Assembly: GCA_937983405.1 (NCBI GenBank)
Contig: CALJZN010000043.1
Coordinates: 62,001-126,000, forward strand
Length of the DNA: 64,000 nt
Direction of reading: 5' to 3'
Origin: an uncultured Paracoccaceae bacterium
Lineage (GTDB): Bacteria > Pseudomonadota > Alphaproteobacteria > Rhodobacterales > Rhodobacteraceae
Position 1 is the stretch's first letter; each line of letters starts with the position of its first letter. A program made the position numbers and the translations under genes. The notes beneath the pieces are model-generated. The model saw only the letters and a program-made list of their open reading frames with translations, had not been told where the DNA came from and made no database searches. This document shows positions 23,037 to 29,832 of the stretch, in pieces.

Positions 23037-24272
<1,236 letters not shown>

Positions 24273-24415: not shown

Positions 24416-25675
24416 ATGACAGGGTTTTCCGACGAGGCCCGCGCCGCCACGGCCGCGCTGCGCGCGCTGTTCCCGCCCACGCCGCTGCAGCGGAACGACC
24501 ATCTGTCGGCCCGCTGGGCGGCCGACATCTGGCTCAAGCGCGAGGATCTCGCGCCGGTGCGCTCCTACAAGCTGCGCGGGGCCTTCAATGCGATGCGCAA
24601 GCGGCGGGCGGCCGACCCCGGGCAGGAGCATTTCGTCTGCGCCAGCGCCGGCAACCACGCCCAGGGCATGGCCTATGCCTGCCGGCACTTCGGGGTGCGC
24701 GGCACGGTGTTCATGCCGGTCACGACGCCGCAGCAGAAGATCGCCAAGACGCGCGCCTTCGGCGGCGGCAGGGTCGAGATCGTGCTGACGGGCGACTACT
24801 TCGACCAGGCCCTTGCCGCCGCCCGCGCCTACTGCCGGGCCGAGGGGGCGCATTTCCTCGCCCCCTTCGACGACGCCGACGTGATCGAGGGCCAGGCCAG
24901 CGTCGCGGTCGAGCTGCTCGAGCAGCTCCGCGCGGCCGCCGGCGGCGAGCCGGATCTCGTGATCCTGCCGGTGGGCGGCGGCGGGCTGGCGGCGGGCGTC
25001 ACCGGCTATCTGGCCGAGGCCGCGCCGGCCGTCGCCTTCCGCTTCGTCGAGCCCGCGGGCGGCGCCAGCCTGACCGCGGCGCTGGCCGCCGGCGCCCCGG
25101 TGGTGCTGCCCCGGGTGGACAGCTTCGTGGACGGCGCCGCCGTCGCCTGCGTCGGCGCGCGCCCCTTCGCGCGGCTGGCCGGGACCGACCCCGCCCATGT
25201 GCTGCGCCCCCCCGAGGACCGCATCTGCGTGACCATCCTCGAGATGCTGAACCTCGAGGGGATCGTTCTGGAACCCGCCGGGGCGCTGGCGGTGGACGCG
25301 CTGCAGGACATCGCCGCCGACATCCGCGGGCGGAGGGTGGTGTGCGTCACCTCGGGCGGCAACTTCGACTTCGAGCGGCTGCCCGAGGTGAAGGAACGCG
25401 CGATGCGCTTCTCGGGGGTCAAGAAATACCTCATCCTGCGGCTGCCGCAGCGCCCGGGCGCGCTGCGCGACTTCCTCGCGCTGCTCGGGCCCGACGACGA
25501 CATCGCGCGGTTCGAGTATCTCAAGAAATCCGCCCGCAACTTCGGTTCGGTCCTGATCGGGATCGAGACCAGCCGCGCCGAGAACTTCACCGAGCTCGCG
25601 CGGCGGCTCGATGCCGGCGGCTTCACCTGGCGCGACATCACTGGCGACGAGACGCTGGCCGAACTCCTGATCTGA
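24416..25675 (+). CDS. ilvA: Threonine ammonia-lyase (biosynthetic, IlvA)
   Basis: PLP enzyme that turns threonine into 2-oxobutanoate, the first step of isoleucine synthesis. Of 419 residues, the catalytic part has the PLP lysine in RSYKLRGAFN, the substrate loop ASAGNHAQG and the phosphate-binding loop PVGGGGLAAG. The C-terminal 80 residues, from KKYLILRLPQRPGAL, are one ACT-like regulatory domain. It is therefore the short, single-ACT form rather than the 500-residue E. coli form. Ribosome binding is weak (GGATAGG). It is divergent from argG and converges on the repeat protein. Confidence 0.94.
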   Translation: MTGFSDEARAATAALRALFPPTPLQRNDHLSARWAADIWLKREDLAPVRSYKLRGAFNAMRKRRAADPGQEHFVCASAGNHAQGMAYACRHFGVRGTVFMPVTTPQQKIAKTRAFGGGRVEIVLTGDYFDQALAAARAYCRAEGAHFLAPFDDADVIEGQASVAVELLEQLRAAAGGEPDLVILPVGGGGLAAGVTGYLAEAAPAVAFRFVEPAGGASLTAALAAGAPVVLPRVDSFVDGAAVACVGARPFARLAGTDPAHVLRPPEDRICVTILEMLNLEGIVLEPAGALAVDALQDIAADIRGRRVVCVTSGGNFDFERLPEVKERAMRFSGVKKYLILRLPQRPGALRDFLALLGPDDDIARFEYLKKSARNFGSVLIGIETSRAENFTELARRLDAGGFTWRDITGDETLAELLI

Positions 25676-25695: not shown

Positions 25696-27057
25696 TCAGG
25701 GGATGTGGTCCATCGCCGCCCGGAGCCAGGCGATGTGCCGCCCGATCCGGGCGCGCTGCGCGGCGAGGTCCTGGTCGAACTCGGCCGCCAGCGTGCCGTG
25801 AATCTTCCGCTCGGTTTCCAGCCGCTGGAGATCGGGCGCGGCATGCGCCTCGAAGGCCGCGCGCCAGGCGCGCAGGCGGTCGATCTCGAACTGGCGGATC
25901 GCGACGTCGGTCGCAACCGCGACGGGGATGCGGCGCAGCGCGTCCTGGTAGTGCGGCCGATATTCGGCCGGGATGCAGGGGGTGGGCCCGTTCTCGCGGC
26001 AGGTCGGCAAGGCAAGCGCGGCGCGGGCGCCCTCGCCGTTGACCCAGCCCAGAGCGGAGGGCACGGCATAAAGCCCGGACCCCTCCTGCCGCCGCACCTC
26101 GGCGATGCCGGCCTCGCGCTCGGCGATCATCGCGTCGATGCCCTGCCCGTTCAGCCAGCCGCCCGACGGAAAGGCATAGGCATAGACCCCGTCGCCCAGT
26201 TGCCGGCCGATTTCGGCCCGTGCGGCCTCGTTGCCGGCGATCCAGGCTTCCAGCCCCTCGCGGTTGAACCAGCCGTGCCCCTGCCGGGCGATGCCCAGGG
26301 TTCCGCCCGTCAGCGCATCCTCGATGCCCTTCAGCTCGGCTTCTGCGGCGTCGATCATGCCCCGAAGTCCGTTGCGGTTGACCCATCCGATGCCGGGAAT
26401 CGCCACGGCGTAGTCCCCCGCGGCGATGGTGGCGCGGATCTGGGCGATCTCGGCCTCGGCGGCGGCGATGCAGCCCTCGACCCCTTGCCGGTTGATCCAG
26501 CCGAGGCCGGGATAGGCAATGGCGAACAGACCGTCCGCCACCGCGGCGTCCAGGTTTGCCCGCTCTTGCGCCGCCGCGGCGATGGCTGCCTCGAGGCTGT
26601 CGCCCGTCATCCAGCCCTGCCCGGCCACATGGAACCCGTAGTCGCCGGCCGACACCACCCCCTCGGCCTCGGCGATGGCGCGGTTGGTGTCGTCGCGACG
26701 CTGCGCGAAATAGCCGAAGATGCCCCAGCCGATATGCGGCACATGGGCGGCGTCGCCCCCCAGCGGCACGAGGCTGCGCGCCGCCGCCACCGCCTGCTCC
26801 TCGACCGCGCGGGCGCGCCGGTGCTCCTCGGCCAGCCGGGCCGCGCCGCGGGAAAGCTCGGCTGCCAACCCGCGGCGAAAGGCCTGCCAGGCATCCATCT
26901 CGCCGCGCCAGACATCCGCCTGCCGCGCGATCTCGGTCGCGGCGTCGCGGCACAGCGCGATCCGCAGGGTCTGGGGGGCGATGGCGTCGGCGTCGGTGAA
27001 GGCGGCGGCCGGAAGGGCGACCGTGGCGGCAAGGGCGAAGGCGAGAGGGCGGCGCAT
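25696..27057 (-). CDS. Secreted protein with seven 38-residue repeats, family unknown
   Basis: A 453-residue protein I do not recognise. Residues 1-19 are a cleavable signal peptide (MRRPLAFALAATVALPAAAF). From about 103 to 345 it is a tandem array: a Gly-Trp pair recurs with Trp at 111, 149, 187, 225, 263, 301 and 338, a period of 38 (once 37). The common pattern is G-x-Y-x-x-x-x-x-G-x-GW-x-N-R-x-G, then a helical Ala/Glu-rich stretch of about 22 residues. The flanks (20-100 and 365-453) are predicted helical. Cysteines occur at 36, 196, 353 and 361. It is divergent from mutS across an FNR-type box. A periplasmic or surface role is likely; function is unknown. Confidence 0.85.
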   Translation of the reverse strand: MRRPLAFALAATVALPAAAFTDADAIAPQTLRIALCRDAATEIARQADVWRGEMDAWQAFRRGLAAELSRGAARLAEEHRRARAVEEQAVAAARSLVPLGGDAAHVPHIGWGIFGYFAQRRDDTNRAIAEAEGVVSAGDYGFHVAGQGWMTGDSLEAAIAAAAQERANLDAAVADGLFAIAYPGLGWINRQGVEGCIAAAEAEIAQIRATIAAGDYAVAIPGIGWVNRNGLRGMIDAAEAELKGIEDALTGGTLGIARQGHGWFNREGLEAWIAGNEAARAEIGRQLGDGVYAYAFPSGGWLNGQGIDAMIAEREAGIAEVRRQEGSGLYAVPSALGWVNGEGARAALALPTCRENGPTPCIPAEYRPHYQDALRRIPVAVATDVAIRQFEIDRLRAWRAAFEAHAAPDLQRLETERKIHGTLAAEFDQDLAAQRARIGRHIAWLRAAMDHIP

Positions 27058-27119
27058 GGAGACCTCGTTCGCAACGGTAGCGATCCGTGCATGCATGCTC
27101 CCGCCGTCCGGGCCGCGCC

Positions 27120-27189: not shown

Positions 27190-29832
27190 GTGACCGACAC
27201 CGCCACGCCGATGATGGCGCAGTATCTCGAGATCAAGGCGCAGCATCCCGAGGCGCTTCTGTTTTACCGGATGGGCGACTTCTATGAGATGTTCTTCGAC
27301 GACGCCGTGGCAGCGGCGGCGGCGCTGGACATCGCGCTGACCCGGCGCGGGCAGCACGAGGGGCGGGACATCCCGATGTGCGGCGTGCCGGTCCAGGCCG
27401 CCGAGGGCCATCTGCTGACGCTGATCCGCAAGGGCTTCCGCGTCGCCATCGCCGAGCAGATGGAGGACCCGGCCGAGGCCCGCAGGCGCGGCGCCAGGGT
27501 GCCGGTGCAGCGCGCGGTCGTCCGCCTCGTCACCCCCGGCACGCTGACCGAGGAAAGCCTGCTCGAGGCGCGCCGCCACAACTACCTGGCCGCCTGGGCC
27601 GAGGTGCGCGACGAGGCGGCGCTGGCGGTGGCCGACATCTCGACGGGCATGCTGACCGTCCTGCCCTGCCCGCGGCTGCGGCTGGCCCCGGAACTGGCGC
27701 GACTGGCCCCGCGCGAGCTGCTGGTGCCCGAGGCGCTGGCGCCCGTGGCCGAGGGGCCGGCGGCCGAGGCGGGGGCGGTGGTGACGCCGCTCGGGCGCGC
27801 GAGCTTCGACAGCGCGGGGGGCGCGCGGCGGCTCTGCGCGCTCTACCGGGTCGAGACGCTGGACGCCTTCGGCAGCTTCGGCCGGGCGGAGCTTGCGGCG
27901 CTGGGCGCCATCGCCGATTATCTCGACCTCACGCAGAAGGGCCGCCTGCCCCTGCTGCAGCCGCCGCGCCGGGAAAGCCCCGCGACGCGGGTTCAGATCG
28001 ACGCCGCGACGCGGCGCAACCTCGAACTCCTGACGGCGCAGGGCGGCGGGCGCGAGGGCACGCTGATCGCGGCGGTGGACCGCACGCTGACGGCGGCCGG
28101 CGGGCGGCTGCTGGAGCGGCGGCTGTCGGACCCCTCGCGCGACCTCGCCGAGGTGCGGGCGCGGCTGGACGCCGTGGCGGCGCTGCTGGCCGATGCCCCG
28201 CTGCGCGCGGCCCTGCGGACCCGGCTTCGCGCGGTGCCCGACATCGACCGCGCGCTGTCGCGCCTCGCGCTCGACCGCGGCGGGCCGCGCGACCTTGCCG
28301 CCGTGCGCGACGGGCTGCGCGGCGCGGCGGCGGTCGCGGCGCTGCTCGGCGGCGCCGGCGGCCGGCTGGCCGAGGCCGCCGCGCGGCTGGCCGGGCACGA
28401 GGCGCTGGCCGACCGCATCGCGGCCGCGCTGGTCGAGGCGCCGCCCGTCCTGCTGCGCGACGGCGGCTTCATCGCCCCGGGGCACGACCCCGAGCTCGAC
28501 GCCGCGCGGCGGCTGCGCGACGAGGGGCGCGGCGTGATCGCCGCGATGCAGGCCGACTATGCCGCCCGCGCCGGCATCGCCTCGCTCAAGATCCGCCACA
28601 ACGCCGTGCTGGGCTATTTCGTCGAGACCACGGCGACCCATGCCGAGCGGATGCTGGCCCCGCCGCTGTCGGACCTCTTCCGCCACCGCCAGACCACGGC
28701 GAACGCGCTGCGCTTCACCACCCACGAGCTGGCCGAACTCGAAAGCCGCATCCTCAACGCCGGCGCCCATGCGCTCGAAATCGAGAGGCGGCTTTTCGAG
28801 GATCTGCGCGCGGCGGTCATGGCCGCCGCCGGCCCGGTGGCCGAGGCCGCGCGGGCCCTGGCCGAGATCGACCTGACTGCCGCCTTCGCCGAACTGGCCG
28901 CCGAAGGCGACTGGTGCCGGCCCGAGGTGGACGACAGCCGCGCCTTCTGCGTCGAGGGCGGGCGGCACCCGGTGGTCGAGCAGGCGCTGCGCCGCACGGG
29001 CGCGCGCTTCGTGCCCAACGACTGCGCCCTGGCCGAGGGCGGACCGGGTGCCGCGATCTGGCTGGTCACGGGGCCGAACATGGGCGGGAAATCGACCTTC
29101 CTGCGCCAGAACGCGCTGATCGCGCTGCTGGCCCAGGCGGGCAGCTTCGTGCCCGCCACCCGCGCGCGGCTGGGCCTTGTCAGCCAGATCTTCAGCCGGG
29201 TGGGCGCCTCGGACGACCTTGCCCGCGGCCGCTCGACCTTTCTGGTCGAGATGGTCGAGACCGCTGCGATCCTCAACCAGGCCGACGACCGCGCGCTGGT
29301 CATCCTTGACGAGATCGGCCGCGGCACCGCCACCTACGATGGCCTGTCGATCGCCTGGGCGACGCTCGAGCATCTGCACGAGGTCAACCGCTGCCGCGCC
29401 CTGTTCGCCACCCACTACCACGAGATGACGGCGCTTGCCGGCCGGCTGCCGGGCCTGCGCAACGCCACGCTGGCGGTGCGCGAGCACAAGGGCGACCTGA
29501 TCTTCCTGCACGAGGTTCGGCCGGGGGCGGCCGACCGCTCCTACGGCGTGCAGGTGGCGCGGCTTGCGGGCATGCCCGAGGCGGTGATCGCAAGGGCGAG
29601 GGTGGTGCTCGAGGCGCTGGAGCGCGGCGAGCGCGAGGGCGGCGGCAGGCGCGCGGCGGTGATCGACGACCTGCCGCTGTTCGCGGCCGCCGCTCGCGGC
29701 GCCACGCCGCCGCCCGCGCCGCCCGGTCCCTCGCCCGTCGAGGTGCGGCTGGCGGCGCTTCACCCCGACGAGATGACCCCGCGCGACGCGCTGGCCGCGC
29801 TCTACGAGCTCAAGGCGCTGCTCGGGGGCTGA
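27190..29832 (+). CDS. mutS: DNA mismatch repair protein MutS
   Basis: Recognises mismatches and starts repair. The 880 residues carry the mismatch-binding motif FYRMGDFYEMFFDDA near residue 30. Late in the protein come Walker A GPNMGGKSTFLRQ, STFLVEM and Walker B VILDEIGRGTATYDG. The start is GTG with a strong GGGGAGGG ribosome site; in-frame ATG codons seven residues on are less well placed. Its last 31 bases overlap the convergent marR-like gene. mutL is not nearby. Confidence 0.97.
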   Translation: MTDTATPMMAQYLEIKAQHPEALLFYRMGDFYEMFFDDAVAAAAALDIALTRRGQHEGRDIPMCGVPVQAAEGHLLTLIRKGFRVAIAEQMEDPAEARRRGARVPVQRAVVRLVTPGTLTEESLLEARRHNYLAAWAEVRDEAALAVADISTGMLTVLPCPRLRLAPELARLAPRELLVPEALAPVAEGPAAEAGAVVTPLGRASFDSAGGARRLCALYRVETLDAFGSFGRAELAALGAIADYLDLTQKGRLPLLQPPRRESPATRVQIDAATRRNLELLTAQGGGREGTLIAAVDRTLTAAGGRLLERRLSDPSRDLAEVRARLDAVAALLADAPLRAALRTRLRAVPDIDRALSRLALDRGGPRDLAAVRDGLRGAAAVAALLGGAGGRLAEAAARLAGHEALADRIAAALVEAPPVLLRDGGFIAPGHDPELDAARRLRDEGRGVIAAMQADYAARAGIASLKIRHNAVLGYFVETTATHAERMLAPPLSDLFRHRQTTANALRFTTHELAELESRILNAGAHALEIERRLFEDLRAAVMAAAGPVAEAARALAEIDLTAAFAELAAEGDWCRPEVDDSRAFCVEGGRHPVVEQALRRTGARFVPNDCALAEGGPGAAIWLVTGPNMGGKSTFLRQNALIALLAQAGSFVPATRARLGLVSQIFSRVGASDDLARGRSTFLVEMVETAAILNQADDRALVILDEIGRGTATYDGLSIAWATLEHLHEVNRCRALFATHYHEMTALAGRLPGLRNATLAVREHKGDLIFLHEVRPGAADRSYGVQVARLAGMPEAVIARARVVLEALERGEREGGGRRAAVIDDLPLFAAAARGATPPPAPPGPSPVEVRLAALHPDEMTPRDALAALYELKALLGG

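Follow-up and report, generated by a model that had tools for sequence, protein, structure and literature searches.

A rare, uncatalogued and probably exported family of helix-hairpin repeat proteins

We report a rare, uncatalogued and genuine family of repeat proteins, probably exported, in which a 38-residue unit, predicted to form a β-hairpin followed by a helix, recurs with strict geometry. Members were found in about 1% of the sampled genomes of the bacterial family (5 of 394, that of the present sequence included), and the four relatives share the same layout. The member described here lies in the window, by which we mean the whole stretch of 64,000 nucleotides analysed from an uncultured Paracoccaceae bacterium. 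Its gene is on the minus strand (the initial annotation gave no strand) and is read from 27057 down to 25696 to yield a product of 453 amino acids. An in-frame ATG is also present at 27096; however, we prefer the start of the 453-residue frame because a possible ribosome-binding site, GAGG, lies 5 nt upstream of it. We consider a periplasmic rod or a scaffold the likeliest interpretation of the protein. Its features, from the start of the gene to its end, are:

25696..27057, minus strand: coding sequence of the 453-residue repeat protein (translation, homologues, omega 0.32 against the sister gene)
27063..27066, minus strand: GAGG, possible ribosome-binding site read from the sequence, 5 nt upstream of the ATG
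27001..27057, minus strand: likely signal peptide, residues 1-19, with a putative cleavage site (hydrophobicity maximum at residues 5-23)
26773..26994, minus strand: predicted long N-terminal helix, residues 22-95, with Cys36 (AlphaFold2/DSSP)
26722..26745, minus strand: HVPHIGWG motif, residues 105-112, with W111 and no predicted hairpin (pLDDT below 50 at 98-107 and 109-111)
26539..26652, minus strand: repeat unit 1, residues 136-173, W149 (unit HMM; predicted hairpin 141-151 and helix 152-174, AlphaFold2)
26425..26538, minus strand: repeat unit 2, residues 174-211, W187 and Cys196 (unit HMM, AlphaFold2)
26311..26424, minus strand: repeat unit 3, residues 212-249, W225 (unit HMM, AlphaFold2)
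26197..26310, minus strand: repeat unit 4, residues 250-287, W263, with R258 invariant in all five proteins (unit HMM, AlphaFold2, alignment)
26083..26196, minus strand: repeat unit 5, residues 288-325, W301 (unit HMM, AlphaFold2)
26008..26082, minus strand: degenerate last unit, residues 326-350, W338, predicted hairpin 331-340 (unit HMM, AlphaFold2)
25975..26001, minus strand: Cys353...Cys361 loop, possible local disulphide (both cysteines in three of the five proteins, neither in two)
25711..25959, minus strand: predicted long C-terminal helix, residues 367-449 (AlphaFold2/DSSP)

The period of the repeat is sharply defined. Over residues 86-350 the BLOSUM62 self-similarity at a lag of 38 residues amounts to 305, whereas shuffled sequences average -186 (sd 33; z 14.8); none of 2000 shuffles reached this score, the best being -64, and the self-similarity is negative at every lag from 30 to 37 and from 39 to 45. 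The tryptophans at 111, 149, 187, 225, 263, 301 and 338 are exactly where the initial annotation had placed them. Its further claim of seven repeats, each with the segment G-x-GW-x-N-x-x-G, holds in part: an HMM of the unit, built from the five full units themselves, delimits those five (136-325) and a partial copy at 329-349 (13 bits), whereas W111 scores below zero. When each of the five was left out in turn, the other four recovered it at 23-55 bits. Only W187, W225 and W263 lie in the segment exactly as written; W301 and W338 have GW-x-N-x-x-G, with the first G absent, and the contexts of W149 and W111 are respectively GWMTGDS and GWGIFGY. The copies are old, as direct repeats in the DNA do not exceed 29 nt in either the window or the genome of the closest relative. 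With the pairs between the window protein and that relative left out, mean identity between units is 0.285 within one protein (50 pairs), about the same as the 0.277 between positionally equivalent units of different proteins (45 pairs), and 0.232 for the remaining 180 pairs; on these grounds a recent duplication of units was rejected.

A scan of genome contigs recovered two loci: one in the Rhodobacteraceae MAG PRO13 (70%; gene L002) and the other in an Antarcticimicrobium MAG (26%; gene L003). The identities of the four relatives to the window protein are 69% (L002), 22% (L003), 37% (L008) and 23% (L009). Sampling at successive taxonomic depths gives a patchy picture, with counts that come from overlapping family, order, class and phylum samples and are hence not summed: three real members among 101 close genomes (own included), three carriers among 292 genomes of the order, one real member among 385 of the class and one among 398 of the phylum, the last two being the source genome itself. 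The close genomes had initially returned four matches, of which that in G026 (E 1.4e-4) was dropped, on our reading of it, as it lies in-frame inside an ORF that shows no repeats; the other match in the class, in G064, was dropped as a phage adaptor gene, Ad1. At the genus level, two of three genomes of the source genus and one of three of the genus of G045 carry the gene, and a sister genome that is 97% complete (G001) is without a match to the family. Searches of plasmids gave no match for four of the five proteins, and neither the window protein nor the family alignment matched anything in phages or viral contigs.

The initial annotation had recognised no family, and this stands: the window protein stays below the cut-off of every Pfam and NCBIfam model (19.2 bits at best in Pfam, for a cut-off of 32, and 15.2 in NCBIfam, for a cut-off of 200), and the four relatives fall below every Pfam cut-off (best 20.6 against 37.5). 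The PHROG, PADLOC and PDB-sequence hits obtained with individual members, or with the complete profile, were read as coiled-coil cross-matches. A literature search of limited scope yielded no publication that we recognised as dealing with this helix-hairpin repeat family.

The full-length AlphaFold2 model, computed from the window protein and two relatives (three sequences), has a pLDDT of 77.9 and a pTM of 0.46. It predicts, in order, a helix at 22-95, a helix at 107-136, hairpins alternating with helices of 23-24 residues, the hairpin 331-340 and a helix at 367-449. Six hairpins are predicted (141-151, 180-188, 218-226, 256-264, 294-302 and 331-340) and none at W111; in all six the tryptophan sits on the second strand, in keeping with the strand-turn and following helix proposed earlier, and the model thus does contain a repeated structural element. 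The stretch between successive helices is 14-15 residues. Folded alone, the repeat region shows the same order with five hairpins, at a pLDDT of 56. The five-row alignment contains five indels within residues 107-349. Hairpins account for four of them; the fifth is at residue 111, in the low-confidence beginning of the first helix (107-136). Foldseek searches of the PDB and of viral models returned nothing with an E of 1e-3 or less, and no family with the helix-hairpin layout appeared among the structure-aligned rows.

Tentatively, and as the reading that we hold the most plausible though somewhat short of an even prospect, we propose that the protein is a soluble, exported and mainly helical rod in the periplasm, stapled by disulphides and with protruding hairpins, that acts as a spacer or scaffold rather than as an enzyme. 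In this model one helical strand would be interrupted every 23-24 residues by six β-hairpins of about 14 residues, each with a G-aromatic pair at its second strand. The uninterrupted N-terminal helix (22-95) would pack antiparallel on repeat helices one to three, and the C-terminal helix (367-449) likewise on the last three. A disulphide between Cys36 and Cys196 would staple the first lobe, and another between Cys353 and Cys361 the loop before the C-terminal helix. The evenly spaced hairpins would serve as docking sites for a partner in the envelope, hence the proposed role as spacer or scaffold; no Pfam or NCBIfam enzyme family scores above its cut-off, consistent with a non-enzymatic function.

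The protein is probably exported, since its N-terminus is the most hydrophobic 19-residue segment in all five members (means of 1.40-1.85 against 0.68-1.29 elsewhere), a result that supports the signal peptide proposed earlier; the margin is narrow in L009 (1.40 against 1.11), where the signal peptide is weak. The values elsewhere in the chain are too low for an obvious transmembrane helix, as would be expected of a soluble protein. The predicted layout of helices and hairpins and the concentration of indels in the hairpins also agree with a rod. The packing is suggested by helix lengths: 111 Å for the N-terminal helix against 115.5 Å for the first three repeat helices, and 124.5 Å for the C-terminal helix against 108 Å for the last three. 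Assuming that hairpins add no rise, Cys36 and Cys196 both come to lie at a height of 88.5 Å, a coincidence with roughly a one-in-ten prior chance; both cysteines are present in four of the five proteins and both absent in one. That protein, L009 (also L013/L076; genome G152), is one of the two most divergent (23%) and lacks the two loop cysteines as well.

Structural alignment with VIA-align points in the same direction, with a division near 213/214. Out of 50 rows, 20 lie in the N-terminal part, with ends at 142-248 (ten exactly at 213), and 17 in the C-terminal part, with starts at 188-292. As examples, 2ch7_A aligns to model residues 19-211 (Z 9.6, 4.8 Å, 169 residues) and 6rw9_A to 227-453 (Z 8.7, 4.9 Å, 186 residues), Z values below about 13 being common for long helices. 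The packing is read from aligned ranges, and the division is absent from the other 13 rows: 12 of them run across both parts, 11 at an rmsd of 27-66 Å and 9y6s_8A (27-334) at 6.0 Å, and the remaining one stops at 278. Further points weigh against the rod: the low pTM and the three-sequence input, along with the poor confidence of the repeat region when folded alone; a heptad-type hydrophobic periodicity in the N- and C-terminal helices of the five proteins that does not rise above shuffles (all ten tests matched by at least 99 of 500 shuffles); and the lack of a conserved gene neighbour pointing to a partner. The phage-adaptor likeness discussed below would, if true, imply a different and compact packing. 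Among known proteins, the periplasmic antiparallel coiled coil of EmrA (4tko) aligns from residues 77-243 to model residues 19-213 (Z 8.2, 5.8 Å, 165 residues), a generic helical similarity. EmrA is not known to have the repeats, and it has a membrane anchor and β domains. Should the rod hold, it would be a periplasmic spacer made of a coiled coil with hairpins at fixed steps, and we know of no other periplasmic spacer built as a hairpin-bearing coiled coil.

An alternative that we consider rather unlikely, but which survives better than the rest, is that each unit is a helix-hairpin-helix module of the gpW/Ad1 head-tail adaptor type, with helices shared between neighbours; the protein would be a tandem, exported derivative or look-alike of such modules, and its hairpins a shared binding surface. 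Slightly less probable again is the specific history in which bacteria captured a phage neck adaptor module that was multiplied in tandem with helices in common, acquired a signal peptide and came to serve in the periplasm as a structural or docking protein, flanked by two long helices. Lambda gpW, according to a cryo-EM description (PMC10721106), comprises a helix (4-22), a hairpin (23-36) and a second helix (37-54); it is a 68-residue single module of the phage neck, forming a 12-fold ring in which neighbouring hairpins make a barrel. The predicted order in the repeat protein, namely helix, hairpin of about 14 residues and helix, is that of gpW (PMC10721106).

The lead arose from the weak family-profile match in G064 (E 6e-4), which is an Ad1 gene (phrog_2545, 1.8e-15). 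Its product (P0003) scores 18.6 bits with the unit HMM, against 7.7 for the best of its 2000 shuffles. From 16 Ad1 matches in 12 of 115 genomes and 38 viral loci, an HHalign set of 37 was assembled: 13 of the 16 genome matches (P0003, one partial match and one cut at the wrong offset being left out), 23 of the 38 viral loci (after removal of short or nearly identical entries) and lambda gpW. The unit profile aligns to 14 Ad1/gpW sequences, without P0003 and the viral loci, at 76.2% (score 26.3, over 48 columns spanning helix-hairpin-helix) and to all 37 at 77.6% (score 26.4), these probabilities of 76-78% applying to a family that was selected following a large search; with P0003 by itself the unit alignment reaches 86%. 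Controls scored lower throughout: 200 column shuffles gave at most 13.3 (all 37) and 13.0 (14), and reversed profiles 15.2 and 14.7; 61 unrelated 68-column windows from MraY and MurF (28 of 29 MurF kept) peaked at 11.4 with the units and at 14.0 with Ad1, under 1%; and the repeat family's own N- and C-terminal helices gave at most 17.9 (6%) against Ad1. In addition, one of the 15 Foldseek rows obtained with the repeat model is Neck 1 of phage Chi (8vhx_A; E 7.8; Z 3.4, 3.2 Å, 49 residues), a protein that a lambda gpW phmmer search lists at E 0.49.

Against this, the Neck 1 row, in which one unit is aligned, comes from the low-confidence repeat model (pLDDT 56), and the full-length model suggests an extended packing other than the compact two-helix bundle. 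None of the five proteins matches phrog_2545 at E up to 0.01, and none of the four scanned does so at E up to 10, with weak matches being removed by the HMMER filters. With the unit HMM, lambda gpW on its own obtains 3.3 bits, a value reached by 47 of its 2000 shuffles (best 8.4), and a search of the PDB with the unit profile at E up to 10 gives 39 rows topped by designed coiled coils, with no gpW. A search-size penalty also applies, gpW/Ad1 having been picked after scanning 385 genomes. Moreover, the repeat gene lies outside any phage gene cluster, being flanked by argG, ilvA and mutS, and has a likely signal peptide. Thus, relative to the Ad1/lambda gpW family (phrog_2545; PDB 1hyw), there is a likeness in predicted element order and an apparent one in profile-profile comparison (76%); unlike the single module of gpW, the present protein carries six predicted hairpins in one chromosomally encoded and probably exported chain, with no single-sequence match. 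We therefore treat the likeness of the unit profile as a real but unproven lead, and not as membership. If the link holds, a phage connector fold would have been put to new use outside the cytoplasm in the form of a tandem array. As a separate observation, the Ad1 gene at L014:1474-1683 (minus), with a PTVG turn, fits the hairpin profile far better (18.6 bits) than does lambda gpW (3.3).

The initial annotation envisaged tryptophan-lined binding sites, for instance for carbohydrate, stacked as a solenoid. The regular period speaks for such an array, as does the presence of tryptophan at all seven places in both the window protein and its 69% sister; nevertheless, we think it improbable. The residues in the five proteins are WW-WW at 111, WWWWW at 149 and 187, WWEYR at 225, WWWHW at 263, WWWHF at 301 and WWKQF at 338. 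The other three relatives hence have E, Y or R at 225, H at 263, H or F at 301 and K, Q or F at 338, and one has a gap at 111. Since tryptophan is invariant at only two of the seven positions (W149 and W187), the alignment indicates that a conserved row of tryptophan ligands is not a feature of the family. The preceding glycine is more constant, being found in all five proteins at 111, 149, 187, 225 and 301, and R258 of unit 4 is likewise invariant. Nor did the stacked solenoid find support: the repeat region folded alone reaches a pLDDT of only 56, and the aligned ranges of the full model look more like antiparallel coiled coils with hairpins.

The genomic setting bears on a further proposal, that the protein is an accessory factor, subject to gain and loss, for envelope defence or inter-microbial interactions. 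In the window the gene lies in the order argG(-), ilvA(+), repeat gene(-), mutS(+):

23037..24272, minus strand: argG (NCBIfam NF001770)
24416..25675, plus strand: threonine ammonia-lyase gene ilvA, convergent with the repeat gene (NCBIfam NF006390)
27190..29832, plus strand: mutS, divergent from the repeat gene (NCBIfam NF003810)

In PRO13 the repeat gene is likewise between mutS and argG. Next to it (L010:7366-7530, minus) is a remnant of ilvA encoding 55 C-terminal residues at 60% identity, the window ilvA being intact. In the sister genome G001 argG directly adjoins mutS, and tblastn of this stretch finds no ilvA and no credible repeat gene (one match, E 0.40, inside mutS). Elsewhere the repeat gene is beside a glutamate dehydrogenase-like gene (which scores below the cut-offs of its models) and near dnaG, near yebC, or between mraY and murD (G152). 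As the settings differ, with four among five genomes, and as G001 is without it, the repeat gene behaves as a stand-alone accessory chromosomal gene. A survey of the mraY-murD interval searched 120 genomes, 119 of them with mraY, and returned 30 loci (L077-L106): by tblastn, murD starts within 1.5 kb of mraY in 18 (gaps of up to 267 nt in 11 and of 657-1498 nt in seven), the other 12 having no murD start within that distance. Among the 30, only G152's own locus matched the family profile, making this neighbour a weak clue. The gap itself varies greatly and may be a spot for accessory genes within the cell-wall cluster.

The patchy presence, the sister genome without the gene and the changing settings speak for such a factor. 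On the other hand, PADLOC at E up to 0.01 matches LmuB in two of the five members, PD-Lambda-1 in one and nothing in the window protein, matches again read as coiled-coil cross-matches, and no defence gene was found among nine chosen neighbours scanned with NCBIfam. We accordingly rate this proposal as doubtful, a shade below the tryptophan array. Far less credible is a relationship to the gas vesicle protein GvpC: haloarchaeal GvpC has repeats of 32-38 residues described as long and α-helical (PMC10903477), a likeness in unit length and helicity; however, it acts on gas vesicles, while the repeat protein is predicted to form hairpins and probably carries a signal peptide, and the window protein has no GvpC-named match in Pfam or NCBIfam at E up to 1.

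The weakest alternative, which we regard as negligible, is a spurious frame in GC-rich DNA, suggested by a GC content of 70-74% across the gene and by long frames on both strands, including one of 593 amino acids antisense to it, and opposed by the retention of period and layout in distant relatives and by the substitution pattern. A scan for promoters and terminators found nothing. Chance or a translation artefact was likewise rejected on the lag-38 self-similarity and the same substitution pattern: comparison with the PRO13 gene over 453 codons gives a dN of 0.24, a dS of 0.74 and an omega of 0.32, with 199 of 371 differences at third positions, and the gene is under purifying selection.
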